Source of the DNA: Selenomonas sputigena
Lineage (GTDB): Bacteria; Bacillota; Negativicutes; Selenomonadales; Selenomonadaceae
Direction: 5' to 3'
Length of the DNA stretch: 64,000 bases
NCBI RefSeq assembly: GCF_026015965.1
Contig: NZ_CP110383.1
Coordinates: 1,057,501 to 1,121,500, forward strand
In this document: one piece after another, positions 1 through 20,055 of the stretch
Position numbering within the stretch: the first letter of the stretch is position 1
How the letters are laid out: every line of letters begins with the position of its first letter
Notes under the pieces: model-generated
What the model saw: only the letters and a program-made list of their open reading frames with translations
What the model was told of the DNA's origin: nothing
Database searches by the model: none
Translations under genes and position numbers: made by a program

Positions 1-179
1 GCGGCACGCTGCAAGTCACTAGAATAGATGGCGTCGATCTTCTCTGCGGGAAAATGCCTGGCGAGGCATTCAGCCTGTTTCACACCCTTTTCTGCCAAGG
101 CAATATCAGAATGTCCTTGAAACCGACCGCCGGAATTCCACTCGGTCAATCCATGTCGAACAAGATAAATCTTCGTCAT
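1..179 (-). CDS. cobC: Histidine phosphatase family protein, probable alpha-ribazole phosphatase (partial)
   Basis: Only the first ~59 residues are in the window; the gene runs off the left edge. The protein opens MTKIYLVRHGLTEWNSGGRF, which carries the RHG phosphohistidine motif and the TEWN-x-GRFQG-HSD pattern of the phosphoglycerate-mutase-like phosphatases. Its ATG (179-177) overlaps the TGA of the upstream cobD gene by 4 nt (ATGA), so it is translationally coupled and is the last visible gene of the cobalamin operon. From that context the likely reaction is dephosphorylation of alpha-ribazole-5'-phosphate or adenosylcobalamin-5'-phosphate late in nucleotide-loop assembly. The family also includes unrelated broad phosphatases, so the substrate is inferred from neighbourhood. 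Confidence 0.8.
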   Translation of the reverse strand, partial: MTKIYLVRHGLTEWNSGGRFQGHSDIALAEKGVKQAECLARHFPAEKIDAIYSSDLQRA

Positions 180-1261: not shown

Positions 1262-1292
1262 AACCTCGTCCTCCCTTCTCTCATGTAAGAAC

Positions 1293-1335
1293 CGCGTACA
1301 ATATCCACAAAGTGGACGTTTGCGCGTATAGTTTT
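1293..1335 (-). repeat. Dispersed hairpin repeat, partial copy (hairpin 2 only)
   Basis: A slightly diverged copy of the hairpin half of the 105-bp unit found at 4836-5045. The inner stem TCCAC-AAA-GTGGA is conserved, and the outer arms read CGCGTACAA and TTTGCGCG. It lies between cobS and cobD, read in the same direction relative to transcription as the other copies, and overlaps the region where a cobD start would otherwise be called. Confidence 0.75.
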
Positions 1336-1431
1336 TCAAAGACAACAGAAACCCGATGTACTTTTCCTTCTACAACGGGTTCCCTTCTTCCTGCATGGAG
1401 CAGAAAGAAAGCCGAACATCTTTATATTACA

Positions 1432-2259: not shown

Positions 2260-2288
2260 AAAAACACCCCCAGTGCTTCACGTCTACA

Positions 2289-4783: not shown

Positions 4784-4830
4784 AAGCCATTCCTCCTGTC
4801 AAGCGATGCAGTATGCTATTCCTGTAGTAT

Positions 4831-4858
4831 ATTTTACTAGGAAAGTCCAAGAGGCCAA
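4831..4858 (-). promoter_or_regulatory. Candidate weak promoter at the edge of the 105-bp repeat, upstream of cbiP
   Basis: On the minus strand, TTGGCC (4858-4853) and TAAAAT (4836-4831) are separated by 16 bp. The same spacing occurs in the stronger TTGACT/TACAAT pair before cbiD, which lies in a diverged copy of the same repeat half. The -35 is inside the repeat and the -10 straddles its edge. The -35 match is weak. Confidence 0.35.
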
Positions 4859-5045
4859 GCCGAAGGCGCAGGCCGATTGAGCAACTTTCCTTAAGGGCGA
4901 CGCACAATGTCCACAAAGTGGACGTTTGTGCGTGTAGTTTACTAGGAAAGTCCAAGAGGCCAAGCCGAAGGCGCAGGCTGATTGGGCAACTTTCCTTAAG
5001 GGCGGCGCACAATGTCCACAAAGTGGACGTTTGTGCGTGTAGTTT
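4836..5045 (-). repeat. Two tandem copies of a 105-bp repeat with two hairpins per unit
   Basis: Units 4836-4940 and 4941-5045 differ at only a few positions. Each unit has an outer inverted pair AGGAAAGT/ACTTTCCT enclosing a GC-rich stretch. It also has a strong hairpin with arms CGCACAA and TTGTGCG around GTCCAC-AAA-GTGGAC. Read in the direction of transcription, the unit begins AAACTACACGCACAAACG and ends TTTCCTAGT. Its first two A residues complete the TAA stop of cobU. Partial or diverged copies lie at 1293-1335, 13298-13340 and 27251-27313. The array fills the 260-nt gap between cobU and cbiP, which otherwise holds no gene. Confidence 0.93.
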
Positions 5046-5601
5046 ACCACGACACTGCCAATTTCTTGAAATCGACGGCAATGCCGCAGGAAACGACGTA
5101 CACCTCATCTGCGGCACGCGCCGTCAGCTGGTTGGCAATGCCTGTGATGTCGCGATACTCGCGTGCAAGATGATTTTCCGGCACGATGCCCGCGCCGACC
5201 TCGTTCGTCACGAAAATCGTCGTACCGTCCTGCTCCTTTGCAGCTTCGAGCAGGAGACTGATTTTCTCACGTATAAGTTCATAATTTGCCGCAGAGTCGC
5301 GGACATTCTCCAAAGCGCACAGCAGATTGCTGATGTAGAGCGTCAGGCAGTCGAAGAGGATCATATCGTGCGCCCTTCCTGCCTCCTCAATGGCAAGATG
5401 CGCGTTCTCGGGCGCTTCCCATGTATGCCAGTCCCTAGGGCGCCGCTCACGGTGCAGTTTGACGCGAAATGCCATCTCCTCGTCATAGACGCCCGCCGTC
5501 GCAATGTAGGCAACCTTCTTTCCGAAACGCGCCGCGTACTGCTCGGCAAAACGGCTCTTGCCGCTTCGTGCACCGCCCGTGACGAGGACGATCTTACCCA
5601 T
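5044..5601 (-). CDS. cobU: Adenosylcobinamide kinase / adenosylcobinamide-phosphate guanylyltransferase CobU
   Basis: Bifunctional enzyme that phosphorylates adenosylcobinamide and then transfers GMP to it. The 185-residue protein starts MGKIVLVTGGARSGKSRFAE, the CobU P-loop. It has the LHRERRPRDWHTWE segment, whose HxxxRP includes the guanylylated histidine, then FDCLTLYISNLL and VTNEVGAGIVPENHLARE(Y)RD. The ATG at 5601 follows an AGGAGGAAG-type ribosome site and overlaps the cbiA stop by 8 nt, which marks the true start. The TAA stop is formed at the boundary with the tandem repeat, so the repeat abuts the end of the reading frame exactly. Confidence 0.96.
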   Translation of the reverse strand: MGKIVLVTGGARSGKSRFAEQYAARFGKKVAYIATAGVYDEEMAFRVKLHRERRPRDWHTWEAPENAHLAIEEAGRAHDMILFDCLTLYISNLLCALENVRDSAANYELIREKISLLLEAAKEQDGTTIFVTNEVGAGIVPENHLAREYRDITGIANQLTARAADEVYVVSCGIAVDFKKLAVSW

Positions 5602-7000
5602 GCATCTTCCTCCTCTCCCTGCTCGCTCGGCAAGCCTCAACGAAAGCCTCAGCCGCCTCAGGGCAGCCTGCAAAGTGCAGGTGCAGATAAGAGCCGAGAA
5701 CCGCCCCCTTGGCATAGCCTGCCGCATAGTGCGCGCCGTTCCTCATGCGCGTAAAAATAAAGGCCCTCGCCGCATCCGCTTTTTCCCCCGGCAATTCCGT
5801 CGAGAAATGAAACTCGTGACCGTGCAGTTTCCTGCCTCGCGGTCCGAGAACCGTATCGCTGCAAAGCTCCGCCTCAACGTAGCCGACCATCTGCAGTTTG
5901 CGGTTCATCTGCACGACAGCAGGAACGATTCCCGTCATCGCATGTTCTTTTCCCTCGAAGTCCACGAGTTTTTCCATCAAGTACATATAGCCGCCGCATT
6001 CGGCATAAATGGGCACACCTGCTGCCGCCGCCTCAGCGAGAGAACGGCGCATCGACACATTCGTCGTCAGTTCCTCGGCAAACATCTCAGGAAAGCCCCC
6101 GCCTAGGAGAACGCCCGCCGCCTCAGGCAGAGCCGTATCATGCAGCGGGCTGAAAAAGACGAGTTCCGCGCCAAAGGATTCCAACACATCAAGACTCTCG
6201 GGATAATAAAAGGAAAAGGCCTCATCGTGCGCGACGGCAAGGCGCACCTTGGACGGCTGTCGCTCTGCATTTTCCCTTGCAGAAAAAAGCAACTCCTCCG
6301 TCGAGGCCAATGGCGCGGCCGCTTCTGCAATCCTTCTGAGCGCCGCAAGATCGACCGAATGCGCCGCCGCCTCGCCCATCTTCTTTACAACATCGCGCTC
6401 TTCGTTCTCCTCGGCAGGCAGAAGGCCTAAGTGACGCTCCGGCATCTTCAGCGATTCGTCGCGTCGCATAGCCCCTAAGACAGGCATGTCAATCTTCGCC
6501 ATCGCCTCGCGTATCATCGCCTCATGCGTATCCGAGCCCAGACGGTTCAAGAGAACGCCCGCGAGGTTGACCTCACGATCATAACTGCGGAAACCAAGCG
6601 CGATCGCCGCTGCCGATGCGCCCATCGACTTCGCATCGAGAACGAGCAGCACGGGCGCGTCGAGCAATTTGGCGATTTCTGCCGTGGAACTCACGCCCTT
6701 CCTGCCGCCGTCATAAAGCCCCATGACGCCTTCGATAACGGCAAGATCCGCACCTTTGGCCGTGCGTGCAAAAATCTCCTTGAGACGTTCAGCCGGCATA
6801 AGCCATGTGTCGAGATTGTGCGCGGGCAGCCCACTCGCAAGCGCGTGATAGCCGGGGTCGATGTAGTCAGGGCCTACCTTGTACGACTGCACGCGCAGCC
6901 CCTGCGCACGCAGTGCGGCGAGGATGCCCGTCACGAGCGTCGTCTTGCCCGAGCCGCTCTGCGTCGCGGCGATGACAATGCGCGGTATCTTCTCTTCCAT
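5594..7000 (-). CDS. cbiA: Cobyrinic acid a,c-diamide synthase CbiA
   Basis: Amidates the a and c side chains of (cobalt-)cobyrinic acid, using glutamine and ATP. The 468-residue protein has an N-terminal DTBS-like ATPase domain with ATQSGSGKTTLVTG and the VIEGVMGLYDG motif. Its C-terminal glutaminase domain has the nucleophile in YAECGGYMYLME, preceded by LLGGGFPEMFAEEL. The start is ATG at 7000. It sits 12 nt after cbiC and overlaps cobU by 8 nt. This is the entry point to the shared late part of the pathway. Confidence 0.96.
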   Translation of the reverse strand: MEEKIPRIVIAATQSGSGKTTLVTGILAALRAQGLRVQSYKVGPDYIDPGYHALASGLPAHNLDTWLMPAERLKEIFARTAKGADLAVIEGVMGLYDGGRKGVSSTAEIAKLLDAPVLLVLDAKSMGASAAAIALGFRSYDREVNLAGVLLNRLGSDTHEAMIREAMAKIDMPVLGAMRRDESLKMPERHLGLLPAEENEERDVVKKMGEAAAHSVDLAALRRIAEAAAPLASTEELLFSARENAERQPSKVRLAVAHDEAFSFYYPESLDVLESFGAELVFFSPLHDTALPEAAGVLLGGGFPEMFAEELTTNVSMRRSLAEAAAAGVPIYAECGGYMYLMEKLVDFEGKEHAMTGIVPAVVQMNRKLQMVGYVEAELCSDTVLGPRGRKLHGHEFHFSTELPGEKADAARAFIFTRMRNGAHYAAGYAKGAVLGSYLHLHFAGCPEAAEAFVEACRASRERRKMHG

Positions 7001-7012
7001 GGCAAAATCTCC

Positions 7013-7645
7013 TCAGCGCGTATTGTCTATGAGATACATGACAGCATTGACGACGGACGCCGCGATCGGGCTGCCGCCCTTCGTGCCTTCCACCGTGATG
7101 TACGGCACTTTTTCGTTCTTCGCCAAAAGTTCCTTGGAATCCGCCGCCCCGACGAAACCGACGGGGATGCCGACGATGGCCGCCGGACGTATGCCTTCCT
7201 CCTCGACCATGCGCAATACCTCGAAGAGCGCCGTCGGCGCGTTGCCGATGGCGATGATCGCACCATCGAGAGCCTTGCCGAAGGAACGCATGGCAGCCAT
7301 TGAGCGCGTGATGCCCTGCGCCTTTGCTTCGGCGGCAATCTTCTCATCTGCTACGAGGCAATGCACCTCACCGCCGAAGGATGCCAGTTTCTTCTTATTG
7401 ATGCCCGTGCGCACCATCTCGACGTCCGTATAGATGTGCGCCCCTTTCTTGAGCGCCTGCTGCATCGCCTCGATTGCCTGCGGATGAACGCGGATCACCT
7501 TCGCATAGTCGACATCGCCCGACGCATGAATCATGCGCGAATACACCTTGATTTCCGCTTCGGAAAGTTTATACTCGGCCAGATACGGTGCGATGATCTC
7601 CATGCTGCGGTTCTCGATTTCCATCGGCTGTTTGATAAAATCCAT
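7013..7645 (-). CDS. cbiC: Cobalt-precorrin-8 methylmutase CbiC
   Basis: Moves the C11 methyl to C12 to give (cobalt-)cobyrinic acid. The 210-residue protein carries the catalytic-histidine region YSRMIHASGDVDYA, the DVEMVRTGINKK segment and AIGNAPTALFEVL. It ends with VGIPVGFVGAADSKELL and GTKGGSPIAASVVNA, all typical of CbiC/CobH. The start is ATG at 7645, 9 nt after cbiJ. The anaerobic branch is inferred from neighbours cbiD, cbiG and cbiT. Confidence 0.96.
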   Translation of the reverse strand: MDFIKQPMEIENRSMEIIAPYLAEYKLSEAEIKVYSRMIHASGDVDYAKVIRVHPQAIEAMQQALKKGAHIYTDVEMVRTGINKKKLASFGGEVHCLVADEKIAAEAKAQGITRSMAAMRSFGKALDGAIIAIGNAPTALFEVLRMVEEEGIRPAAIVGIPVGFVGAADSKELLAKNEKVPYITVEGTKGGSPIAASVVNAVMYLIDNTR

Positions 7646-7654
7646 GCTGTAACC

Positions 7655-8419
7655 TCACTTCTCTGCTTTATGAACAAACGCCAAGACCTCTTCAAAAGTC
7701 TGCGCCATATTGTCGTAGGCGATGCGCGGCCGTTCGACGATGACGAGCGGCAGGCCGAGATTCATTGCCGCCGCAAATTTCGTATCGGCGCCGCCGACCG
7801 TGCCGCCGTTCTTCGTGACGACGACATCCGCCTCATACTTCTTGTAAAGCTCCTCGTTGAGCGCTTCGGAAAATGGTCCCTGCAAGGCGACGATATGGCT
7901 CGGGCGAAAGCCGAGCGCCGTACATTCCTCGATGACTTCGGGGGCGGGCAGGACGCGTGCCGTCAGCACACATTTTTTCAGTGCGGGCGCTTCTGTAAAC
8001 GCCTTGAGGTTGTGACTGCCCGTCGTAAGAAAGATGTTCCGTCCCAAATCCGCCGCAACTTCCGCCGCTTCCTCGTAGTCTGCGACGTAATGCGCCTTTT
8101 CATAATCGAGCGGCGCACTCTGTCTCTCATAGCGGATATACGGGATGCCGCACGCGCGGCAGGCGCGCATGGCATTTTCGGAGATATTCGCCGCATAAGG
8201 ATGGCTTGCATCGACGAAGACAGTGACGCCATGCGCACGGCAATACTCCGCCAGTGCTGCTTCATCGAGCGGACGATCGTTGATGACGATGCCCGGATAG
8301 CGCGACAAAAGCTCCTCACCGTAGCGGCTCACGACCGATGCCGTGACACTCTGCCCCTTTTCGAGCAAAAAACCTGCAAGCTCCCTGCCGTCCTGCGTGC
8401 CTGCTGCCACGAAAATCAT
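7655..8419 (-). CDS. cbiJ: (Cobalt-)precorrin-6A reductase CbiJ
   Basis: NAD(P)H-dependent reductase of the corrin macrocycle. The 254-residue protein shows the family pattern: MIFVAAGTQDGRELAGFL at the N-terminus, then VFVDASHPYAANISENA, the FLTTGSHNLKAFTEAP motif, and VVTKNGGTVGGADTKFAAA near the end. The ATG overlaps the stop of cbiH by 4 nt, so translation is coupled. It sits between the ring-methylating enzymes and CbiC, as expected for this step. Confidence 0.94.
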   Translation of the reverse strand: MIFVAAGTQDGRELAGFLLEKGQSVTASVVSRYGEELLSRYPGIVINDRPLDEAALAEYCRAHGVTVFVDASHPYAANISENAMRACRACGIPYIRYERQSAPLDYEKAHYVADYEEAAEVAADLGRNIFLTTGSHNLKAFTEAPALKKCVLTARVLPAPEVIEECTALGFRPSHIVALQGPFSEALNEELYKKYEADVVVTKNGGTVGGADTKFAAAMNLGLPLVIVERPRIAYDNMAQTFEEVLAFVHKAEK

Positions 8420-9156
8420 ACTTCGTAGCCCCGCGGCGTGATCATGTAGCCTTCCTTCACATAGGTGCGGCTGTTGCCGATGATGACGAGCGAGAACATG
8501 TCGATCGTTTCCTTCGTGAAGTTCTCAAGCGTCGAAATCGTCTTGCTCTCCGCTTCACGCGCCGCATGGTTCACAATGCCGACAGGCGTATCTGCCGCAC
8601 GGCAGGCAAGGAATATCTCGCGGATCTCCTCGATGTTCTGCACGCGCTTCTTGCTCTTGGGATTGTAGAGCGCGACAACGAAATCAGCTTCTGCCGCCGC
8701 CTTGGCACGCTTCTTGATGAGTTCCCACGGCGTCAGGAGATCGCTGAGACTGATGACGGCAAAGTCATGCATGAGCGGTGCGCCCAAGATCGAAGCCGCC
8801 GCATTGACCGCCGAGATGCCGGCGATGACGCCGCCGAACTCGGGGCGATCGCTCGCTTCGCGCTGCAAGAGAAGTTCCAAGACGAGTCCCGCCATGCCGT
8901 AGACGCCGGAATCGCCGCTCGAAACGACGACGGTATCTCTTCCCTTCGCCGCCGTTTCCACCGCCATGCGGCAGCGGTCGATCTCCTGCATCATGCCTGT
9001 GCCGATGACCTCGCGCTCACCGATGAGGTCTTTGATGAGCTTGATGTACGTCGTATATCCTGCGACGACTGCCGCTTCCTCAATCGCCCGCTTCGCACGC
9101 GGCGTCATATCCTCCAAACTTCCGGGACCGATGCCCACCACTGTTATTTTTCCCAT
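8416..9156 (-). CDS. cbiH: Cobalt-precorrin-3 C17-methyltransferase CbiH
   Basis: SAM-dependent methylation at C17 with ring contraction. The 246-residue tetrapyrrole-methylase fold protein has the SAM-binding GIGPGSLEDMTPRAKRAI at the N-terminus, VVVSSGDSGVYGMAGLVLE in the middle, and VALYNPKSKKRVQNIEEI, a CbiH/CobJ hallmark. No fused ferredoxin domain is present, so this is the short CbiH form. It overlaps cbiG by 13 nt and cbiJ by 4 nt. Confidence 0.95.
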   Translation of the reverse strand: MGKITVVGIGPGSLEDMTPRAKRAIEEAAVVAGYTTYIKLIKDLIGEREVIGTGMMQEIDRCRMAVETAAKGRDTVVVSSGDSGVYGMAGLVLELLLQREASDRPEFGGVIAGISAVNAAASILGAPLMHDFAVISLSDLLTPWELIKKRAKAAAEADFVVALYNPKSKKRVQNIEEIREIFLACRAADTPVGIVNHAAREAESKTISTLENFTKETIDMFSLVIIGNSRTYVKEGYMITPRGYEV

Positions 9157-10196
9157 ACAAGTGCCACCGTCACTTTCTCAAATCTCGTCTTGGCAAGGGC
9201 AAGCCGTCCTGCGGGGACGCTCGCGAGCGCTGCAGCTTCCGCGACGTTGCCGATGCCGATATTTTTCTTGACAAAAGGAGACTCAGAAAGCCCATAGGCG
9301 TCGATTGTCTCCTGCATCTTTTCGTTGGAATGGAAGCGAATATCACGCTTGAGTTTCGCGCTCAAAGCAAGAAGCCCAGCCTCGTCCGCCTTCGCCTCTG
9401 TACTCGCGAGAAGCGATACATCTGCGATGCTGCGCCCGATCTTCGTGAGGGTCACTTCCAATGCCACCCGTATCTCCGACATCTCCGTGCCGCGTCTGCA
9501 GCCGATGCCGGCAACGAGACGGCGCGGCACGAGGCAGATCACATCTTCTCGCCGCACACTTTCATCCGCCGTGATGAAGGCCGTCAAGCCTTCCTTCGGC
9601 GGAAGTTCCCGTCCGAACAGCGCCGTCAACCCCATATCGTCAAGCCGCTTCTTGTAAAAGCTCGCACGCGCGAGATTCTCATCAATTACATAGCGAATCG
9701 ACTCATCGTCAAGCACGGCGCTGTTGAATCGCTTGATCTGCTCCTTCGGCGAGGGGCGCAGCGCAAGGCGCGCGGCGGCGACATCGACGGCAAGCTTCTT
9801 CTGCACGTCCGTTGCCGTCGTGATGACGGGATCTGCGCCGAGCGACGCCGCAAGCTCGCGCGTCAGTTCATTCGCGCCGCCAATGTGACCCGAAAGCAGA
9901 CTGATGACATGCTGCGCCTCCTCATCGAGCACGAGGACGGCCGGATCTTCCAGCTTGCTCTTCAAAGAACCCGCAATCATGCGCACGGCAATTCCCGTCG
10001 CCATGATGAAAACAAGCGCATCATACTGACGAAACGCCGCCTCAACCTGCGGCGCGAGGCGCTTATAAACGCGTACTTCCGCCGGCATTTCCTGCCCTGC
10101 CTTGACGAAGATGTCGACGCTCGCATCGAGTGATGCGCGAACGCGAAGAGCCGTCTTCGTGCCGCGCGGCGTCGCCGTAAAAACCGCGCATCTCAT
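9144..10196 (-). CDS. cbiG: Cobalt-precorrin-5A hydrolase CbiG
   Basis: Opens the delta-lactone of cobalt-precorrin-5A and releases acetaldehyde, a step found only in the anaerobic pathway. The 350-residue protein has the N-terminal region ending in ATGIAVRMIAG, the VLDEEAQHVISLLSGHIGGANELT block (central CbiG domain), and the C-terminal LVAGIGCRRGTEMSEI with LALAKTRFEKVTVALVWEK. The ATG overlaps the cbiF stop by 4 nt. The C-terminal domain is intact and not fused to CbiH or CbiF. Confidence 0.95.
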   Translation of the reverse strand: MRCAVFTATPRGTKTALRVRASLDASVDIFVKAGQEMPAEVRVYKRLAPQVEAAFRQYDALVFIMATGIAVRMIAGSLKSKLEDPAVLVLDEEAQHVISLLSGHIGGANELTRELAASLGADPVITTATDVQKKLAVDVAAARLALRPSPKEQIKRFNSAVLDDESIRYVIDENLARASFYKKRLDDMGLTALFGRELPPKEGLTAFITADESVRREDVICLVPRRLVAGIGCRRGTEMSEIRVALEVTLTKIGRSIADVSLLASTEAKADEAGLLALSAKLKRDIRFHSNEKMQETIDAYGLSESPFVKKNIGIGNVAEAAALASVPAGRLALAKTRFEKVTVALVWEK

Positions 10197-10951
10197 TTGC
10201 TTGCTTCGCGGAACATGTGGCTGAACTCCGGCGCGTAGAGGCGCGAAAGCTCATAGTCCGCGCCGAGGCAGCGGCTGACGACGATCATCGCCGTGCGGTC
10301 GATGCCCTTGTCGGCAATTTCCGCCACGATGGTTTCCAATGTCGCGCGCACGATCTTCTGCTCGGGCCACGAGGCGCGCTGCACGATGGCGATCGGCGTA
10401 TCAGGCGCGTAGCCGCCCTCGATAAGCTCCTTCACGACATCCGCGAGCATCGTGATGCTGAGGAAGATGCACATCGTCGCCTGATGTGCGGCAAGCGAGC
10501 GCAGCTTCTCCCGCTCGGGCACGGGCGTACGCCCCTCGTTGCGCGTGATGATGACCGTCTGCGAGATGCCGGGAAGCGTATACTCCTGCTTCAAAGCGGC
10601 AGCCGTCGCGAGGAAGGAGCTGACGCCCGGCACGACCTCGAAATCAATATCCTTCTTCTTGAGTGCGTCCATCTGTTCCTGAATTGCGCCGTAGATGCTC
10701 GGATCGCCCGTATGAAGGCGCACGACCATGAGATCTTTCGCCACGGCTTTCTCTATCGTCTCAATGACCTCGGGGAGCGTCATAGAGGCGGAATCGTGAA
10801 TCTCCGCTCCCTCCTTGGCAAAGCCCAAAAGGGCGGGATTGACGAGCGAACCCGCATAGATGATGACATCGGCTTTTTGCAGCAGCTTCTGCCCTTTGAC
10901 CGTGATGAGCTCGGGATCGCCTGCGCCCGCGCCGACAATGTATACCTGCAT
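10193..10951 (-). CDS. cbiF: Cobalt-precorrin-4 C11-methyltransferase CbiF
   Basis: SAM-dependent methylation at C11. The 252-residue protein starts MQVYIVGAGAGDPELITVKG, the glycine-rich N-terminal SAM loop. It has ADVIIYAGSLVNP, HTGDPSIYGAIQEQ and VPGVSSFLATAAALKQEYT, the standard CbiF/CobM series. The start is ATG at 10951, 13 nt downstream of the cbiT stop. CbiF acts just before CbiG in the pathway and is just upstream of it here. Confidence 0.96.
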   Translation of the reverse strand: MQVYIVGAGAGDPELITVKGQKLLQKADVIIYAGSLVNPALLGFAKEGAEIHDSASMTLPEVIETIEKAVAKDLMVVRLHTGDPSIYGAIQEQMDALKKKDIDFEVVPGVSSFLATAAALKQEYTLPGISQTVIITRNEGRTPVPEREKLRSLAAHQATMCIFLSITMLADVVKELIEGGYAPDTPIAIVQRASWPEQKIVRATLETIVAEIADKGIDRTAMIVVSRCLGADYELSRLYAPEFSHMFREASK

Positions 10952-10964
10952 GTTCTTCCTCCTG

Positions 10965-11552
10965 TTACACGTTTGCCTTATGGCAGGAAATGATGTAGAC
11001 GGGGTTGATCGCCTCCGCCATATCGTAAGGACCGACCTTCTTCAAGCGATTGACCTGCACCTGGACGGTATCATAGAGATAGCCGCTCTTCTTTCGCATG
11101 TAGGCGAGTGAACTCGCGAGCGTCTGTACCGTGATGCAGTTGATGACGATGAAGCCGCCGGGTTTCAATCGTTTGTCGAGAAATTCAAGGATCTCTTCCA
11201 GATGGCTTCCCGTGCCGCCGATGATTGCCGCATCAAGCCGTTCGGGCAGCTGCTCCAGTCCCGCCGGCGCCTCGCTCTCGATGATCGTGATGTTCTCGAT
11301 GCCAAATTTCGCCGCATTCTGACGGATGAGTTCGATCGCTTCTTTTTTGCGCTCCACGGCGTAGACATGACCCGCCTTCGCCAGAAGCGCCGCCTCGATG
11401 GAAAGCGACCCCGTGCCGGCGCCGATATCACAAACGATATCATTTTTTCCGATCTTCGCCCCCGCCAGTGTCAGGATGCGGATCTCCTTCTTCGTCATCG
11501 GCACTTTGCCGCGGATGAATTCTTCGTCTTCGATGCCTAAAAAATGTTTCAT
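10965..11552 (-). CDS. cbiT: Cobalt-precorrin-6B C15-methyltransferase (decarboxylating) CbiT
   Basis: Methylates C15 and decarboxylates the C12 acetate side chain. The 195-residue Rossmann-type methyltransferase begins with FIRGKVPMTKKEIRILTLA, the family signature. SAM motif I is DIGAGTGSLSIEAALLA, followed by VYAVERKKEAIELI and AAIIGGTGSHLEEILE. CbiT and CbiE are separate proteins here rather than a CobL-like fusion. The ATG overlaps the end of cbiE by 4 nt. Confidence 0.95.
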   Translation of the reverse strand: MKHFLGIEDEEFIRGKVPMTKKEIRILTLAGAKIGKNDIVCDIGAGTGSLSIEAALLAKAGHVYAVERKKEAIELIRQNAAKFGIENITIIESEAPAGLEQLPERLDAAIIGGTGSHLEEILEFLDKRLKPGGFIVINCITVQTLASSLAYMRKKSGYLYDTVQVQVNRLKKVGPYDMAEAINPVYIISCHKANV

Positions 11553-12175
11553 GCCTTCACCACCAAAACACCATGAGAGATTTCCGCTGCAGACGCCGCC
11601 TCAGCAAGTGTCGTATGAATGATTTCCTCATCTTCATAAGACAGCCGTGAGCATATATGAAGCTCTGCAGAAGACGGCCAGCCAAGCTCCATAAGGCGCT
11701 GTGCAATCGTGCGCGAATTGTTCGATCGATCTGTCAAAAGCCCGAGCAGGGCGCCCTCCTTGTAAGCAATCTCTTTCGCCTGCGGCACGCGTCCGTGGAA
11801 GGACGCAAGTCTCGCCTCATGCCAAGGCAGAGCAAGGCGCGCAAATGCCATCTGCAGGGAACTTACGCCGGGGATGACAACGAGCGCCTGTGGCGGGAAC
11901 TCACGCCGCAGAGCATCGAGCAGCGAATAATAGCCGGGATCGCCTGAAACCATGACGACGACGTGCGTCTTTTGAATCTTCTCCCGAATGAACGAAAGGA
12001 CGGCGTCTATATCGCCGCGAATCGTCATCGTCTCCTGCCCTTGCCTGGCGAAATCCGCCAGGGCGCGGCTGCCGCCGACGAGCACCTCCGCGCCCTCGAT
12101 GGCAGCGCGTGCCGCCGGCAGGACAAAATCTGGATTTCCCGGTCCGATGCCTGCCACTACGATTCTATGTTCCAA
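11549..12175 (-). CDS. cbiE: Cobalt-precorrin-7 C5-methyltransferase CbiE
   Basis: SAM-dependent methylation at C5. The 208-residue tetrapyrrole-methylase protein has VAGIGPGNPDFVLPAARAAI, the VMVSGDPGYYSLLDALRR loop and VIPGVSSLQMAFARLALPW. Its C-terminus has the TDRSNNSRTIAQRLMELG segment typical of CbiE. It overlaps cbiD by 19 nt and cbiT by 4 nt, so the three open the operon as one coupled block. Confidence 0.95.
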   Translation of the reverse strand: MEHRIVVAGIGPGNPDFVLPAARAAIEGAEVLVGGSRALADFARQGQETMTIRGDIDAVLSFIREKIQKTHVVVMVSGDPGYYSLLDALRREFPPQALVVIPGVSSLQMAFARLALPWHEARLASFHGRVPQAKEIAYKEGALLGLLTDRSNNSRTIAQRLMELGWPSSAELHICSRLSYEDEEIIHTTLAEAASAAEISHGVLVVKA

Positions 12176-13269
12176 TGAAAATCCCTGCCTATCTCTCTTG
12201 CTGTATCATCCATGCCCAAGAGCTCCCCCTTCAGCGTCGTCATCGCCGTACCCACGCGCAGATCTTGGAATACATACCGCTCGGCACGAGCCGAAGCACG
12301 CGCGCAAAGAATGCCATAAACCCGCTCCAAACCGTATTCGGCAAAAAGCGGCAAGGCCTCTTCCGTCGTCGTCGCCGCAAGGATGCGGCGCACCGCTTCC
12401 TGCGGCAGGCCTTCTGCCGCCGCGTAGGCAGCGAGCGCTTCCAAGCGGCCGTCCGCTATGCGGTTGTGCGTATAAAAGACACCTGCCGCAACCTTCGAGA
12501 GCTTGCCGATATGACCGAAAAGCAGCACGCGCTTGAGCTTCCTTTCCACCGCACGCTCCAACATGAAGCCGATGAAGTTGCTCGTCTGCACGACAGCCTC
12601 GCGCGGCAGGCCGAAGCGCGCCGCCGCATTCTCGCCCATCTTGCCCGGCACGAAGATCTGCGTGTCGAAGCCTGCTGCAAGAGCCACATCCATCTGCGGT
12701 ACGAGGGAGTTTTTGAAGCCTTCCTCCGACATAGGACGCAGGACGCCCGTCGTGCCGATGACGGAAATGCCGCCGACGATGCCGAGGATCGGATTCAGCG
12801 TGCGTTTTGCAAGTTCCTCGCCTGCGGGAATCGAAATCGTGACGTCCGCACTGCCGTCCTTGCCGAGGATTTCCTCGATGACGTTGCGAATCAGCTGGCG
12901 AGGCCCCGGATTGATCGACGGCTCGCCCGGCGGCACGGAAAGCCCTGGCTTCGTGACCGTGCCAATGCCGCGCCCCGCATGGAAATGAACGCCGCTCCCC
13001 TCAGGGCGAACGACGACTTCCGTAAAGACGGAAACGCCATTCGTGATGTCTGGATCATCTCCTGAGAACTTCACGACCTCGGCGCGCGCTCCCGACGGCG
13101 TGCGGATGACTTCTTGAATCGGAATGTGAAGCGGCGTGCCGTCGAGCGCCATGATCGTCACTTTCTCGCAATACTCTCCGTCAAGAAACAGGAGCGCCGC
13201 CTTCGTCCCAGCCGCCGCACAGGCTCCTGTCGTGTAGCCGCTTCGCATCTCCTTCGCCATCGCACTCAC
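12157..13269 (-). CDS. cbiD: Cobalt-precorrin-5B C1-methyltransferase CbiD
   Basis: SAM-dependent C1 methylation, specific to the anaerobic pathway. The 370-residue protein has the N-terminal RSGYTTGACAAAGTKAAL signature, FSGDDPDITNGVSVF, INPGPRQLIRNVIEE and IGTTGVLRPMSEEGF. It is the first gene of the cobalamin operon. A TTGACT/TACAAT promoter lies just upstream, giving a leader of only about 15-20 nt. A GTGGAGGAG ribosome site precedes the start; ATG at 13260 (MAKEMRSG) is an alternative start 3 codons in. No riboswitch fits in the short gap to the upstream terminator. Confidence 0.96.
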   Translation of the reverse strand: MSAMAKEMRSGYTTGACAAAGTKAALLFLDGEYCEKVTIMALDGTPLHIPIQEVIRTPSGARAEVVKFSGDDPDITNGVSVFTEVVVRPEGSGVHFHAGRGIGTVTKPGLSVPPGEPSINPGPRQLIRNVIEEILGKDGSADVTISIPAGEELAKRTLNPILGIVGGISVIGTTGVLRPMSEEGFKNSLVPQMDVALAAGFDTQIFVPGKMGENAAARFGLPREAVVQTSNFIGFMLERAVERKLKRVLLFGHIGKLSKVAAGVFYTHNRIADGRLEALAAYAAAEGLPQEAVRRILAATTTEEALPLFAEYGLERVYGILCARASARAERYVFQDLRVGTAMTTLKGELLGMDDTAREIGRDFHWNIES

Positions 13270-13291: not shown

Positions 13292-13319
13292 ATTGTACAA
13301 GGAAACTTCGAGAAGTCAA
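13292..13319 (-). promoter_or_regulatory. Sigma-70-type promoter of the cbi/cob operon
   Basis: Minus strand: -35 TTGACT (13319-13314), 16-bp spacer, -10 TACAAT (13297-13292). Transcription would start around 13285, leaving a very short leader before cbiD at 13269. The promoter lies within a diverged copy of the 105-bp repeat half and downstream of the terminator at 13344-13386, so the cbi operon is transcriptionally separate from the mut operon. Confidence 0.75.
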
Positions 13320-13343: not shown

Positions 13344-13386
13344 ATAAAATCTAAGCCCCGGCACACAAGAAGTGCAACCGGGGCTT
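13344..13386 (-). terminator. Intrinsic terminator ending the mut operon
   Basis: A 9-bp perfect stem AAGCCCCGG/CCGGGGCTT (13353-13386) is followed on the minus strand by AGATTTTAT. It lies about 40 nt after the MsrA-like gene and before the cbiD promoter. Confidence 0.85.
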
Positions 13387-13427: not shown

Positions 13428-13997
13428 CTATTGCAATATCCCCAGCTCGCGCAGCCGCTTGAAATCAATCGTTGTCTTGCGGTGCGGATGACGAGCGAGA
13501 TACTGCTGCCGCTCAGGTTCCGCTGGATGGAAGCTTACGAGAGGCGCAGCTTTTGCATAGCAGTGACGCGTCAACTTCTTGTTGTGATTCGGGTCGTTGA
13601 CCGTCACGTTCGCTTCTGTCGCGGCAGGAGGTCTGCCGCGATTCACGATGAAATTCATGTGATATTCGACGAGCGGCGCGTCCTCTGCATCGACGTAGTA
13701 TACGCCGCTTTGGTACATCGGCCCTTTCGCCGCCCCCTGTCCATCCTTTTCATAGGGATTGACGACGGCGAAGAGGATGTCCAAAAGCTGCGATATATCT
13801 GTCTTCTTCGGGTTGTAGGCGATTTCCAGTCCCATGACAGCCTTGATCCAACCGCTTTTCACTGCATCATACGACGGCTCCTCACTCTGTGCATCAATAT
13901 AGCCGGTACGCGTCGCGACGACGCCGGGCACATGATCGAAAACCGCCTGCAGCTCGTAGAAGCTGCCGCCAGAGACATATAGCCGTTTCGTATACAA
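13428..13997 (-). CDS. MsrA-fold protein lacking the catalytic cysteine (putative pseudoenzyme)
   Basis: A 189-residue protein with the methionine-S-sulfoxide reductase A layout: the N-terminal catalytic loop, a GVVATRTGYIDA segment, PSYDAVKSGW, then AYNPKKTDISQLLDILFAVVNPY and MYQSGVYYVDAEDAP. The invariant GCFWxxE motif reads GSFYELQ (residues ~11-17). The nucleophilic Cys is therefore Ser and the acidic Glu is Gln. The GHAE motif is GWIK, and DxGxQYRS is replaced by AKGPMYQS. No alternative cysteine replaces the nucleophile. The start is TTG at 13997 after GGAGGG, 3 nt downstream of meaB, so it is the last gene of the riboswitch-controlled mut operon. Classical reductase activity is unlikely; the role is unknown. 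Confidence 0.8.
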   Translation of the reverse strand: MYTKRLYVSGGSFYELQAVFDHVPGVVATRTGYIDAQSEEPSYDAVKSGWIKAVMGLEIAYNPKKTDISQLLDILFAVVNPYEKDGQGAAKGPMYQSGVYYVDAEDAPLVEYHMNFIVNRGRPPAATEANVTVNDPNHNKKLTRHCYAKAAPLVSFHPAEPERQQYLARHPHRKTTIDFKRLRELGILQ

Positions 13998-14000
13998 GGA

Positions 14001-15185
14001 TCATCCCTCCTCATGGGGATGCAGAAGATCGACATGGCGATCCGAAGCACGATGTATGTCGAAGACATGGATAAGCTCCGCCACACCCTGCGAGGGGGAC
14101 ACCGTCCCCTTGAGCACGGCATCGCGCACTTCCGGCATACGCCCCAGAATCACAGGATCGTCAAAGAAGAGGTTGTGCAGGTGCTCGTCGATCATGCTGT
14201 TCATCCAGTCGAGCAGCTGACTTTCACGACGCTTTCGGAAAGCACCATTCTCCTTCGTCGTGCTCTCAAAGATGCGAATGACATCCCAAAGCTCTTTCAA
14301 TCCCGTCTTTTCCAAGGCAGAAACGAGGTAGGCATGCGTCTGCCAGCCCGGCGTCGCGGGACGAATGTACTCGATCATACGCTCGTACTCGCCGCGTGCG
14401 ACCTGAGCTTTCGTGCGATTGTCTCCGTCTGCCTTGTTGATGACGATGGCGTCCGCCAGTTCCATGATGCCCTTCTTGATGCCTTGCAGCTCATCTCCTG
14501 CCCCCGTCAGAACGACGAGCAGGAAGAAGTCGACCATCGAGCGAACCGTCGTTTCCGACTGTCCGACGCCGACGGTTTCGATGAGGATGACATCATAGCC
14601 GGCCGCCTCGCAGAGAAGCATTGTCTCACGGCTCTTCCTCGCGACACCGCCCAAAGTGCCTCCGGCAGGTGACGGGCGAATGAATGCCTCTTCCCTGCGC
14701 GAAAGCGTGCCCATGCGCGTCTTGTCTCCAAGAATCGAGCCTTTCGTCACCGAGCTTGTCGGATCGACCGTCAGGACGGCGACGCGATGCCCCATGTCGC
14801 AGAGCATGTTGCCAAAAGCCTCGATCATCGTGCTCTTGCCCGCTCCCGGGACGCCTGTGATGCCGATGCGCAGAGCCTTCCCCGTATGGGGAAGGAGATC
14901 CTGCAGCACCCTCTGCGCCTTCGGGAAATGACGCGGGCTGTTGCTTTCAATGAGCGTGATGGCGCGCGAGAGGATCATGCGATCCCCCGCGGCCACGCCT
15001 TTCACATAGTCTTCCACATCAAGAATCATGCGATTCCTTCGGAAACCCGTCTTTCCAAGATCAGGGTTGATGTTGCCAACCGTCAGATCCTTGATGCCGT
15101 CAATGCCGCTCATGACGCTCGTGGCAAAATTCTTGTCCGCATTCTCCGGCACCCAGTCCGGCTTCGTGTTCGTGTATTTCGCCAT
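14001..15185 (-). CDS. meaB: Methylmalonyl-CoA mutase chaperone GTPase MeaB
   Basis: G3E-family GTPase that gates cobalamin loading and protects or reactivates methylmalonyl-CoA mutase. The 394-residue protein has Walker A in GITGVPGAGKSTMIEA (P-loop residues ~111-118) and the switch region TVDPTSSVTKGSILGDKTRM. It also has FIRPSPAGGTLGGVARKSRE, LIETVGVGQSE and the base-specificity NKAD. The N-terminal ~40 residues are an extension before the usual domain. It lies 5 nt downstream of mutB, as in many mut operons. Confidence 0.95.
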   Translation of the reverse strand: MAKYTNTKPDWVPENADKNFATSVMSGIDGIKDLTVGNINPDLGKTGFRRNRMILDVEDYVKGVAAGDRMILSRAITLIESNSPRHFPKAQRVLQDLLPHTGKALRIGITGVPGAGKSTMIEAFGNMLCDMGHRVAVLTVDPTSSVTKGSILGDKTRMGTLSRREEAFIRPSPAGGTLGGVARKSRETMLLCEAAGYDVILIETVGVGQSETTVRSMVDFFLLVVLTGAGDELQGIKKGIMELADAIVINKADGDNRTKAQVARGEYERMIEYIRPATPGWQTHAYLVSALEKTGLKELWDVIRIFESTTKENGAFRKRRESQLLDWMNSMIDEHLHNLFFDDPVILGRMPEVRDAVLKGTVSPSQGVAELIHVFDIHRASDRHVDLLHPHEEG

Positions 15186-15190
15186 GGTCG

Positions 15191-17389
15191 TTACCCCGCA
15201 GCCATTTCTTCCTTTGCACGTCCAATCAAGAGTTTCAGGAGTTTGACGCCCGCCTCGGGGATGTTCGTTCCCGGAGCGAAGATGGCGACCGCGCCGCTCT
15301 TGTAGAGGTGGTCATAGTCCTGCACGGGGATGACGCCGCCAATGCAGACCATGATGTCCTCGCGCCCAAGCTTCTTGAGTTCTTCCACAAGAGCCGGCAG
15401 GAGCGTGTTGTGACCGGCAGCCAGCGAACTGAAGCCAACCATGTGAACGTCGTTATCGACGGCATCCTGCGCCGTCTCATCCGGCGTCTGGAACAGAGGT
15501 CCGACGTCGACGTCCCAGCCCATGTCAGCGAAGGAGGAGGCGATGACCTTCTGTCCGCGATCGTGACCGTCCTGCCCCATCTTGGCGACAAAGATACGCG
15601 GCCGGCGACCCGTGAGCTTTTCAAAATCATCGGCAAGCGCACGCGCCTTGTCCAGCTCCGTCTTGTCCGTAAACTCTGAAGAGTAGACGCCCGAAATCGT
15701 ATGGATGACGGCCTGATAGCGACCCGAAACCTTTTCCACGGCATCCGAAATCTCGCCGAGCGAGCAGCGCACGCGCGCCGCTTCGACCGCGCATTCCAAG
15801 AGATTGCCGTTGTCGCGCGTCTCGGCAGCCTTCGTGATGGCTTCCAAGGCGGCGCGCACGTCGTCCTCGTTGCGGTTGGCACGCAGTTTTTCGAGGCGCT
15901 CGACCTGAGCCTGACGCACAGCGGTGTTGTCGATCGCGAGGATTTCCAGCGGATCTTCTTTCTCCAAGCGGTACTTGTTCAGGCCGACAATCGTCTCGTT
16001 GCCCGAATCGATTCTCGCCTGACGACGCGCTGCAGCCTCTTCGATGCGCATCTTCGGCAGCCCCGTCGGAATCGCCTTCGCCATGCCGCCGAGGGATTCG
16101 ACTTCCTGAATATGCGCCCAAGCGCGGCGAATGATCTCGTTCGTAAGGGCTTCGACGTAGTAGGAGCCGCCCCACGGGTCGATGATCTTGCATACGCTCG
16201 TCTCATCCTGAATGTAGAGCTGCGTATTGCGCGCGATGCGAGCCGAGAAATCCGTCGGCAGAGCGATGGCCTCGTCGAGAGCGTTCGTATGCAACGACTG
16301 CGTGTGCCCAAGAGCCGCGCCCATCGCTTCCATCGCCGTGCGCGCGATGTTGTTGAACGGATCCTGCGCCGTGAGCGACCAGCCCGAAGTCTGCGAATGC
16401 GTGCGAAGCGCCATGGATTTGGGATTTTCCGCGCCGAACGACTTGACGATCTTCGCCCAGAGGACGCGCGCCGCACGCATCTTGGCGATTTCCATGAAGT
16501 AGTTCTTGCCGATTGCCCAGAAGAACGACAGACGCTTTGCGAAGGCGTCGATCGGAAGTCCCGCCTTGATGCCCGTACGGATGTATTCGAGGCCGTCGGC
16601 AAGCGTGTAGCCAAGCTCAATGTCCGCCGTTGCGCCAGCCTCCTGCATGTGGTAGCCCGAAATGGAGATGCTGTTGAACTTCGGCATATACTTCGTCGTG
16701 TACTCGAAGATATCGCCAATGATGCGCATCGACATATCCGGCGGATAGATGTACGTGTTGCGCACCATGAATTCTTTGAGGATGTCGTTCTGAATCGTAC
16801 CCGCCATGATCTTCTTGTCAACGCCCTGCTCGACGCCTGACTGAATGAAGAAGGCGAGAATCGGCAGAACGGCACCGTTCATCGTCATGGAAACCGACAT
16901 CTGATCGAGCGGAATGCCCGAGAAGAGGATGTTCATGTCGAGCATTGAGCAAACCGAGACGCCCGCCTTGCCAACGTCACCGATGACGCGCGGATTGTCG
17001 GCGTCGTAGCCGCGATGCGTCGGCAGATCGAAGGCGATGGAAAGACCCTTCTGACCGGCCGCAAGGTTTCTGCGGTAGAAGGCGTTCGATTCCTCCGCCG
17101 TCGAGAAGCCTGCGTACTGACGCACCGTCCACGGACGGAAAACGTACATCGTCGAGTACGGTCCTCTGAGGCACGGCGGGATGCCGCTCGCAAACTCCAA
17201 GTGGTTCATATGATCGTATTCATCGTGATTGTAGAAAGGCTTGATGGGAATCTTCTCCATCGTACTCTCCATCAGCGAGTCATAGCTCATGCCCGTCGAA
17301 GCTTCCAAGCGTTTGCGCCAATCCGCCTCTTTATGAGCAGGCGCATCCTCAAGGTTGATTTTCGTGAAATCAGGGTTCTGTGCCATCAC
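15191..17389 (-). CDS. mutB: Methylmalonyl-CoA mutase, catalytic (large) subunit
   Basis: Interconverts methylmalonyl-CoA and succinyl-CoA using adenosylcobalamin; in a propionate-forming anaerobe the net flux would be from succinyl-CoA. The 732-residue protein has the N-terminal TIM-barrel substrate domain ([45 protein letters not shown]). Its C-terminal B12 domain has the DxHxxG cobalt-ligand motif as MGQDGHDRG (~607-612), followed by GFSSLAAGH and IGGVIP. It overlaps the mutA stop by 4 nt. The intact ligand motif makes this the cofactor-binding partner. Confidence 0.97.
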
Positions 17390-19584
17390 TGAATCATTCC
17401 TTTCTTCTTCTGCAGCATCTGCAGTGTCTTGTAGCAGTTGGCACGCACGGAAATGAAGTCATCCACGCCCGCTTCGCGATAAATTGGCTCCAAATCCTTC
17501 GGCGCAGCGCCCGCGAGGAAGATCGTAGCCGCAGGCAATGCCGCGCGCAGTTTCGGCGCGAGCTCGGGCACAATTTCCGGATACGTCGGATCGGTCGAGC
17601 AGATGACGACAGCGTCAGCACCCGATTCCTTCGCGGCGGCAGCCGCTTCGTCCGTCGTCTTGAAGCCGTCGTTCAACAGCACTTCAAAGGCTCCGACCTG
17701 CAGGAAGCTCGTCGAGAAATCGGCACGCGCCTTGTGCTGCGGAATGGGGCCCATATTCGCGAGGAAGATCTTCACGTTATCGCCGTCGTGGCTGTCCCTA
17801 TACTCCTCGGTGATGCGGCGCAGAGCTTCATAGCGCTCGCTCCAGCGGTGCGCTCCAATTGCCGTGATCTTCTCGGCTGCCTCGCCCGTCTGCAAGGCCT
17901 CGCGAAGCTCCGCAATCGTCGCACCGGCCTTCGCCGCCTTGACAGCAGCCTCCGCCTTCTCGCCCTTGCCCGCACTCTTCAATGCCGTGAGGCACTCCTT
18001 TTTGAATGTCTCGTCCACATCGGCGAGATAGGCTTCGACATCCTTCTTGCGCTTTTCCAGAAGTTCCGCCACATCCTCTGTGCGCGGATCGAGCAGTTTC
18101 TCCGTCATATTCGGATACATATTGTTGCCGACGATGCGATCTCTGCGCAGTTCGAGCTTCTTGAAGCGATCTTCAAGCGTCTTTGCGACTTCTTCCTGCA
18201 CATAGCCGACTTCGAGAGCCTTGACGATACCGCCCTTGCCCTCGATCGTCTGGAATTCTGCCCAAATCTTTTCCTGAATTTCTTTCGTCAGCGTCTCAAC
18301 TGCCCAAGAGCCGCCCGCTGGATCAATCGGCTGCATAAGGCCGAATTCTTCCTGCAGCATGATCTGCACATTGCGCGCGATGCGGCGCGAGAACTCATCA
18401 CCCTTGCGAATCGGCTCATCGAACGGAGCGTTCTCAAAGGAGTCAAGTCCGCCGACGACACCGGAGAAGATCTCCGTCGTGTTGCGCAGCATGTTGACGT
18501 AAGGATCGTAAACCGTCTTGAAAAACAGTGCGGGACGTGCATGTACGTGGATGCGCTGCGCCTCTTCTCCGCCGCCGAACGCCTTGACGATCTGCGCCCA
18601 AATCGGGCGAACCGCACGAAGCTTCGCAATCTGCAGGAAGAAGTTCGCGCCCATCGAGAAGCCGAACATCATCTGCTCTGCCGCCTCGTCGACCGTAAGT
18701 CCGCGCTCCATGAGGGCACGCAAGTACGCGACGCCGACGGCGAGCGTCGAGGCGACTTCCTGCACATCGTTGGCGCCGCCGCGCGAAACGGCATCGCTGC
18801 GCACCATGATCGTCTTGAGATTCGGCGCATACTGCTTTGCCCAGAGAGCAGCCTCCGCCATCTCATCATAGAGCTGTGGCAGCGAAGCGTAATTCTCGCC
18901 GCGCTGAATCAACTCGCCCAAGGGGTCTGCTCCCACGAAGCCGCCGAGCTTTGCGAGGTCACCGCCGTCAGACTTGACGGACGCAGCGACGAGAGACAGC
19001 ATCGGCAGGGACGACGCGCCCGCATAGATGTAGAGCGGATGCTGGTCGAGCTTCAAGCCGTTGAGCGTCGTGTGCATATCCTCAACCGTCGTAATATTGC
19101 AGCCTTCATCGCCGATTTTTTCAGCATCCTTGGCATCCTTGTTGAGGAGCGTTGCCGAATCGAGGCGGATGTTGTAGATGGTCGAACCCTTGTCCACTTC
19201 GCGGTGCAAGAGTTCGTTGTTCTCCTCGGGCAGCGTCTCGTCGCACGACTGCGCGATGCCCCAAGGCTGTTCGATATAGCCGTTCGGACGCACACCGCGC
19301 AGGAAGTTGTCCATGCCGGGAAAGTCCGTCCTCGGCAGGATCTCGTCCGTCATCTTGTGGGTGTACATCGGCTCGAATGTGATGCCCTCGTACGTTTTCG
19401 TGAACATCTTTTTCTCGAAGGGCGCCCCCTTCAAGAGTGCGACGCATGCCTCTTTCCACTCGTCATACGTCGGCGGTTCGAATTCGTCGAGCGGCACATC
19501 GGGGAAACTCGTTTGCTGTTCGGCCTTCTTCAAGATGGCCTGCAGGTCAAGATTCTCGTCCTGACCCTTTGTCTCATTGCTCAT
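17386..19584 (-). CDS. mutA: Methylmalonyl-CoA mutase, small (non-catalytic) subunit
   Basis: Partner of MutB in the heterodimeric enzyme. The 732-residue protein follows the same two-domain plan, but the position of the DxHxxG cobalt-ligand motif reads [10 protein letters not shown]. It therefore cannot ligate cobalamin, as is known for small subunits. The barrel shows [20 protein letters not shown] and the [19 protein letters not shown] block. The start is ATG at 19584 (MSNETKGQ) with GGGAGG upstream; an in-frame extension to 19632 would read through the leader terminator and is rejected. It is first in the mut operon and lies behind a cobalamin riboswitch. Confidence 0.95.
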
Positions 19585-19621
19585 ATTTCCACAGCCTCCC
19601 TTGAAATAATACGGAATACAA

Positions 19622-19651
19622 CAAAAAGCCACCCTGCAGTCGAGGGCGGCT
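19622..19651 (-). terminator. Terminator-like hairpin just before mutA
   Basis: Minus strand: stem AAGCCGCCCT/AGGGTGGCTT (one G-U pair) followed by TTTTTGTTG. It ends ~37 nt before the mutA ATG and is a candidate expression platform for the upstream riboswitch. Confidence 0.7.
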
Positions 19652-19724
19652 TCGTCATTTTCGTGAACAGGCTTGCAGGAAATCTCTTCTGCACATCATG
19701 TCCGTGCAAAGTGCATTTTCCAAT

Positions 19725-19752
19725 AAAAAATCCGGTGCAAATCTGCGCCGGA
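19725..19752 (-). terminator. Second leader terminator between riboswitch and mutA
   Basis: Minus strand: stem TCCGG-C-GCA/TGC-A-CCGGA with one mismatch and loop GATT, followed by TTTTTT. It lies about 75 nt downstream of the B12 box. The roughly 70 nt between the two terminators hold no credible gene. Confidence 0.7.
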
Positions 19753-19824
19753 GAGCCTGCCGTGAAATGACAAAATCCCCTACCCATCGCTCGCAGGTAC
19801 CAGCGCAAATCGCGCTGACGGTGA

Positions 19825-19980
19825 TGTCAAAACAGGCAGTTCTCCTGGCTCAGATTCATCGTCCGATCATGCCTTCCCAGAGATTTCTCCAGTGGCCTTT
19901 TATGAAGGACTCCTCTTACAGTGGCGGGACCGCTCCGGCTTCTACCGAATTCCCTATTAAGTCTTGCGACGCCTGTCTCC
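19825..19980 (-). ncRNA. Cobalamin riboswitch (B12 element) upstream of mutAB-meaB
   Basis: Read on the minus strand, the consensus blocks appear in order. They are ACAGGC (start of P1), AATAGGGAATTCGGT, GGTCCCGCCACTGTAA, GCCACTGG, CTGGGAAGGC, and the B12 box AGCCAGGAGAACTGCC (19850-19835). GCCTGT then closes P1 (19832-19837 pairs with 19971-19976). The element sits ~240 nt before mutA with two terminator-type hairpins in between, and just downstream of a TTGACA/TAATAT promoter. Normally such elements shut off expression when adenosylcobalamin is abundant; the direction here cannot be read from sequence alone. Confidence 0.93.
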
Positions 19981-20003
19981 AACAATATGTTGTTTTCATC
20001 TTT

Positions 20004-20033
20004 ATATTAACTCTGTTTATTGGGGATTGTCAA
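20004..20033 (-). promoter_or_regulatory. Promoter of the mut operon (minus), -35 shared with the divergent promoter
   Basis: -35 TTGACA (20033-20028), 18-bp spacer, -10 TAATAT (20009-20004). Transcription would start just before the riboswitch. The -35 box overlaps that of the plus-strand promoter at 20027-20055. Confidence 0.75.
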
Positions 20034-20055
20034 TACTCCCGAAGTCTTTTACAAT
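20027..20055 (+). promoter_or_regulatory. Divergent promoter of the small hypothetical gene (plus)
   Basis: -35 TTGTCA (20027-20032), 17-bp spacer, -10 TACAAT (20050-20055). The 7-bp TTGTCAA serves as -35 in both directions, so the two promoters should compete for polymerase. Confidence 0.75.

Follow-up and report, generated by a model that had tools for sequence, protein, structure and literature searches.

A cobalamin riboswitch upstream of mutAB in Selenomonas sputigena, and a candidate riboswitch-controlled small RNA complementary to mutase start codons in Negativicutes

We found that the mutAB operon of Selenomonas sputigena is preceded by a cobalamin riboswitch that is predicted to terminate transcription in its ligand-bound state, and that the same genome carries, behind another cobalamin riboswitch, a small RNA-like element whose unpaired seed is antisense to mutase start regions. 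We consider it likely that both contribute to control, the riboswitch as an OFF switch in cis on mutAB and the element as a small RNA in trans on mutase starts. With a little less assurance, we think it probable that in many Negativicutes the translation of mutase mRNA is blocked in B12 scarcity by a riboswitch-controlled antisense small RNA, which together with the OFF switch on mutAB would give opposite wiring. The window referred to below is the whole stretch of S. sputigena DNA that was analysed (64,000 nt); its features are collected in Table 1.

Table 1. Features of the mut and cbi region, in window coordinates.
Feature	Position	Strand	Remarks
mut operon sigma-70-like promoter, TTGACA-18-TAATAT	20004..20033	-	consensus match only
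Cobalamin riboswitch aptamer, RF00174	19818..19991	-	100.9 bits, full model
L5 loop GGUCCC	19926..19931	-	expected kissing partner of L13 (GGU with ACC); from sequence
Aptamer 3' core GAGCCAGGAGAACUGCC, predicted antiterminator 5' partner	19835..19851	-	pairs with 19761-19738
L13 loop UACCUGCGAG, 3' of aptamer	19790..19799	-	kept in nearly all relatives
Predicted antiterminator 3' partner GGCAGGCUCUCCGGCGCAGAUUUG	19738..19761	-	overlaps 5' arm and loop of T1
Terminator T1 and UUUUUU	19725..19752 (hairpin 19752-19731)	-	dG -11.7; riboswitch-controlled by folding
Terminator-type hairpin T2 and U-rich tail	19618..19653 (hairpin 19653-19625)	-	dG -17.6
AUAUGAGCAAUG at mutA start	19575..19586	-	exact complement to 12 nt of the element at G000:C1:839483-839599
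mutA, methylmalonyl-CoA mutase small-subunit type, 732 aa	17386..19584	-	best family TIGR00642, 391.6 bits, below family cut-off
mutB, methylmalonyl-CoA mutase large subunit	15191..17389	-	NF006944, 1240 bits, above cut-off
meaB, mutase-associated GTPase	14001..15185	-	NF006958, above cut-off
msrA-like gene, last in mut operon	13428..13997	-	TIGR00401, 86.9 bits, below cut-off
GC-rich hairpin with imperfect U tract, between msrA and cbiD	about 13353..13386	-	dG -23.8
cbi promoter, separate, TTGACT-16-TACAAT	13292..13319	-	
cbi/cob biosynthesis operon, cbiD to cobD	176..13260	-	without a riboswitch of its own

The initial annotation, made from the letters of the sequence, had placed a cobalamin riboswitch, with two terminator-type hairpins behind it, between the mut promoter and mutA, on the operon that uses B12 and not on the one that makes it, and had proposed a search with the Rfam covariance model RF00174. 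That search confirmed the placement. The match (E 4.7e-24) covers model positions 1-189, lies 5' of mutA and is followed by T1 and T2, and its score is far above the gathering score of the family (31.5 bits). By this covariance model the aptamer belongs to the cobalamin riboswitch class and is predicted to bind its ligand. The expected pairing of L5 with L13 has been described for this class (PMC9600662). T2 lies directly 5' of the mutA ribosome site, and the operon continues in the order mutA-mutB-meaB-msrA. The scan of the 64,000-nt window gave no Rfam match besides the aptamer, and no second riboswitch between T1 and T2. A decayed, non-functional aptamer has next to no probability: nothing was found in its favour, and the score, the full-model match and the intact conserved core all speak against it. 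On the other strand, a divergent 87-aa open reading frame (window 20131-20394, plus strand) has its own promoter-like site at 20027-20055, overlapping the mut promoter region.

Folding of the leader indicates that the window riboswitch is an ordinary transcription-terminating (OFF) riboswitch, from which we infer its native response to ligand. T1 formed with a probability of 0.78 when the aptamer and L13 were masked (bound-like state) versus 0.00 when all bases were free. T1 and the ligand-binding aptamer contest one strand, which argues for an OFF switch. The antiterminator formed by GAGCCAGGAGAACUGCC and GGCAGGCUCUCCGGCGCAGAUUUG, which takes in the whole 5' arm and loop of T1, had a dG of -32.1, and 19 of 3000 dinucleotide shuffles were equally strong; with less of the T1 side included, the shuffle test gave weak support (113/2000). 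The leaders L064, L071, L039 and L069 fold in the OFF direction like that of the window. In addition, the homologous mutA riboswitch of V. parvula was one of 38 whose GFP reporters were repressed by corrinoids in B. subtilis, and 37 of those 38 functional riboswitches had terminator-type platforms [Kennedy et al. 2022, PMC9600662].

The initial annotation had raised the idea of an ON switch in cis, in which cobalamin binding frees mutA transcription and the mutase is made only when its cofactor is present. For an enzyme that uses B12, such wiring would be easy to understand. It also fits T2 to some extent: the probability of this hairpin was a little lower in the bound-like than in the free state (0.83 vs 0.88), and much lower (0.13 in the bound-like state) when L13 was left free. 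In the leader folding suggested in that annotation T2 is predicted in both states, a result that counts against our main explanation, since T2 would stand before mutA also when T1 is open. However, T1 goes the OFF way and uses the strand needed by the ligand-bound aptamer, and the V. parvula homologue represses (PMC9600662). We therefore rejected the ON switch in cis, to which we assign a small probability.

Pseudoknot-free equilibrium folding failed to separate the two states in many relatives, and for one leader (L075) it pointed opposite to the OFF direction. Such folding of all leaders gave little signal where the terminator was strong; masking the aptamer and L13 helped partly. In many Negativicutes a second terminator-type hairpin recurs, either 3' of T1 or shortly before mutA (leaders L010-L029 and L090-L098). 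In L060, L067 and L068 the 3' arm of T2 is able to pair with L13, which suggests that T2 is also ligand-controlled in these three leaders.

The arrangement of riboswitch and mutA is conserved across the class. RF00174 matched 5' of mutA in all of the first 20 relatives scanned. Using a survey model built from 20 aptamers, followed by gene mapping, we found a riboswitch before mutA in 56 of 61 loci (window included) from 14 Negativicutes families; the five loci without one all belong to genus g13. This comparison of mut leaders, which the initial annotation had recommended, indicates that the riboswitch has probably been attached to mutAB-meaB since early in Negativicutes, and it generalises a published Veillonella case to the greater part of the class.

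The same survey bears on whether the riboswitch belongs to cobamide synthesis, either as a relic of a fused mut-cbi transcript, as had been proposed, or through read-through into the cbi genes. The cbi operon (cbiD E T F G H J C A, cobU, cbiP, cbiB, cobS, cobD) does lie directly 3' of the mut operon on the same strand. The hairpin between msrA and cbiD was not called by the terminator scan and, because its U tract is imperfect, mut transcripts could still run into cbiD. However, among the 61 mutA loci the adjacency of mut and cbi is confined to the genus of the window. The mut-riboswitch arrangement is old and the cbi neighbour recent, so the relic reading falls. As had been described from the letters alone, cbiD also has its own promoter and a short leader (31 nt from the end of the -10 box to the ATG; leader ~25 nt). 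We rejected this reading and give it a very small probability. The genome contains eight RF00174 matches in total and none on the cbi operon. By sequence reading (not a family-library scan), the first genes behind the other riboswitches encode CbiK-like, BtuF-like and TonB-receptor-like proteins, a membrane protein and a peptide/nickel-type permease.

In some of the sister leaders the riboswitch is followed by a conserved block in which AUUGCUCAU is unpaired and invariant. The element consists of two covarying hairpins and a terminator, with an unpaired seed CAUUGCUCAU, and has a predicted size of about 90-140 nt. A covariance model of the element found one strong copy in the window genome, G000:C1:839483-839599 (L099, L188), behind riboswitch L001, and copies in 15 of 23 chosen genomes. 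Across the class, at least 39 of 200 genomes had a match (a lower bound, obtained with stricter filters). The S. sputigena copy lies outside the window, between L001 and a gene for a CbiK-like protein that begins like a signal peptide.

We found that the element is associated with an upstream riboswitch. A same-strand riboswitch was located 5' of 16 of 17 copies, and also of copies found later; L116 (G075), which has no riboswitch 5' of it, was left out. As an independent check, named genomes, most of them Selenomonas, were scanned with an exact pattern; the riboswitch core lay 200-330 nt 5' of the element in 28 of 28 scorable places, that is, those with enough upstream sequence. The rumen bacterium S. 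ruminantium HD4 is among the carriers of the element. The hairpins covary: 14 of 15 pairs had double changes, and 97.2% were paired compared with 34-67% when slid. Most copies have a U-rich tail 3' of the second hairpin. L001, the riboswitch before the S. sputigena element, is also predicted by folding to be an OFF switch (T1 0.85 bound-like vs 0.00 free). These properties, an upstream riboswitch and a covarying structure with its own terminator, are those of a small RNA with a putative transcript. We rejected a known Rfam family, since no credible match to the element was found up to E 5. Five genomes (G006, G009, G013, G092 and G156) have two to four copies (loci L205, L279, L210, L277, L278, L206, L112 and L117). 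Among these are tandem copies and copies whose seed is altered, as if copies were undergoing retargeting.

The seed points to mutase start codons as targets: CAUUGCUCAU is antisense to AUGAGCAAUG, and AUUGCUCAU to AUGAGCAAU. The window mutA begins with AUGAGCAAUG, and so does a second B12-dependent mutase in most of the relatives that have the element. A search of 14 genomes for AUGAGYAAUR behind a ribosome site gave few matches per genome. The recurrent match, in most of the 14, was a stand-alone acyl-CoA mutase large subunit (MSNEKIQAEL...). Its neighbours, identified by sequence reading, encode a CoA transferase, a B12-binding small subunit, MeaB, and epimerase-like and carboxyltransferase-like proteins, and by these neighbours the second mutase would belong to a propionate pathway. 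In the window genome, the other long-frame start match was mutA, with 12 nt complementary to the element (AUAUGAGCAAUG, 19586-19575); with the same start sequence, it may be a second target of the small RNA there. A third gene start in this genome carries GGAGGUAUGAGCAAUG 5' of a second ATG that opens a frame of ~200 aa (L121, G000:C1:927593-927602), and is a possible extra target.

We gathered mutase starts from element-positive and element-negative genomes. The start AUGAGCAAUG is present in most element-positive genomes of families f1, f2, f5, f13 and f17, with Ser always encoded by AGC. In eight genomes the third codon is ACG or ACU instead of AAU (target AUGAGCACN), and in these the seed differs too. 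G092 has the target AUGAGCACU, and both of its seed copies read AGUGCUCAU, an exact compensatory double change (ACU/AGU). The native pairing in G092 was stronger (-14.5) than that with swapped partners (-10.6 and -11.1). This seed is not explained by mutA, because mutA of G092 starts AUGAACAAU. The ACG genomes have the seeds AAAUGCUCAU or GUUUGCUCAU, with only 7-8 pairs kept; for the targets AUGAGCACG (G016, G043, G071, G086, G103, G025 and G049) the changed seed pairs at only 7-8 of 10 positions. A further seed variant, AGUUGCUCAU, occurs in L296, L307, L313 and L314. One clear exception to seed-target matching is G044 (L275), which has a damaged seed, AAUUCUCAU, and an unchanged target start.

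None of 10000 permutations gave seed-target covariation as good as that observed, in a test that ignores relatedness; after relatedness is taken into account, approximately three independent co-changes are left, one exact (G092) and two in lineages with partial pairing. The complementarity of the seed to the target start region, together with the compensatory change, is that of a base-pairing small RNA, with predicted pairing. In many element-negative families the mutase starts are AUGGCNAAY or AUGAGU. Nine genomes (G019, G047, G007, G036, G182, G195, G169, G162 and G167) have the AUGAGCAAUG target and no detected element, and part of the target conservation is shared ancestry. Two genomes of genus g6 (G005 and G034) have the target start AUGAGCACU, also with no element detected; for these we predict an undetected element with the seed AGUGCUCAU. 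Only 3 of 40 riboswitch-bearing mutA loci start with AUGAGCAAU, so mutA is not a conserved target in such loci.

Genus g13 shows a different arrangement. The mutA riboswitch was absent in all five g13 genomes examined (G145, G148, G057, G012 and G107), and a second mutase was not found in any of the three tested (G012, G040 and G057). A seed was present behind a riboswitch in 5/5, although the first hairpin is hard to make out in G012. The mutA start is AUGAGCAAU in four of these genomes and AUGAGCGAU in the fifth (G-U tolerated). In g13 the seed-matching start is in mutA, at a locus apart from the element. This is what retargeting of the small RNA to the remaining mutase would look like.

These data also bear on the possibility that the element is a second sensor or an antitermination site acting in cis on the gene behind it, with a coincidental antisense match to mutase starts. 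Consistent with this, the element sits between riboswitch and gene in mutA, cbiK-like, GntP-like and TonB leaders. However, different genes lie 3' of it (cbiK-like, mutA, GntP-like, TonB or ABC, by sequence reading), whereas the riboswitch and seed are retained, and the element has a terminator of its own at its end. In addition, changes in the seed go together in trans with changes in a mutase start, as described above, and in g13 the matching start is at another locus. We rejected a cis leader on the grounds of the varying downstream gene and the trans covariation, and regard it as unlikely.

Based on these results we suggest the following model. When cobamide is scarce, the 3' strand of the mut aptamer would pair with the 5' arm of T1 and RNA polymerase would pass; when cobamide is present, the aptamer and the L5-L13 kissing loop would take those bases, T1 would form, and mut transcription would stop. 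By the logic of an OFF switch, MutAB would therefore be made more in cobamide scarcity. In the same condition the OFF riboswitch L001 would release the small RNA, of which none would be made with B12. The single-stranded CAUUGCUCAU would pair with AUGAGCAAUG at the start codon of the second mutase and block its translation. The second B12-dependent mutase, in the propionate operon, would thus be wired opposite to MutAB, which might be the reason for the OFF wiring, and the two mutases would serve different cofactor levels (an isozyme swap). The idea in the initial annotation that a mutase is made only with its cofactor may hold by this other route, a riboswitch-controlled small RNA complementary to mutase starts.

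Parts of this picture have precedents. A Veillonella riboswitch 5' of a mutase gene has been noted (PMC7160235), and the V. parvula mutA riboswitch is likewise 5' of mutA in a Negativicute and represses (Kennedy et al. 2022, PMC9600662). The mutA placement, which had been called unusual, is so only in part given this published case; the window differs from it in family, in its two tandem terminators and in its adjacent cbi operon. In a V. parvula survey, riboswitches are likewise off cobamide biosynthesis and also near cobamide-dependent genes; the survey mapped one Veillonella genome and is not known to describe a small RNA there (Swaney et al. 2022, PMC9600381).

The element would resemble Listeria AspocR in that a B12 riboswitch precedes a non-coding RNA acting in trans; under B12 scarcity AspocR lowers expression needed for a B12-dependent pathway, and it is thought to block translation (PMC8079631). 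However, AspocR is 1.4 kb and is antisense to the regulator gene pocR, which occupies the other strand at that locus (PMC8079631), whereas the element is much shorter and would act from a distant locus through a short seed directed at the start codon of the enzyme itself. Listeria Rli55 is also a B12-riboswitch-controlled small RNA that couples a B12-using pathway to its cofactor, by sequestering EutV through an ANTAR site (PMC8079631). No ANTAR match was found up to E 5 in L001, L028 or L012, unlike in an Rli55/EutX-type RNA. In the open-access literature we found no description of a riboswitch-controlled small RNA on methylmalonyl-CoA mutase, and a B12-controlled small RNA pairing with mutase start codons appears to be unreported.

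The riboswitch on mutAB raises a puzzle, B12 turning down an enzyme that uses B12, to which the trans element suggests a testable solution, namely that the two mutases work at different levels of B12. If the model is correct, the element would provide a natural example of a short antisense RNA that is driven by a riboswitch and aimed at the cofactor's own enzyme. Several such bacteria, in the rumen and gut, make propionate through the mutase step. In these propionate producers, B12 supply would set the level of the mutase as well as its activity.
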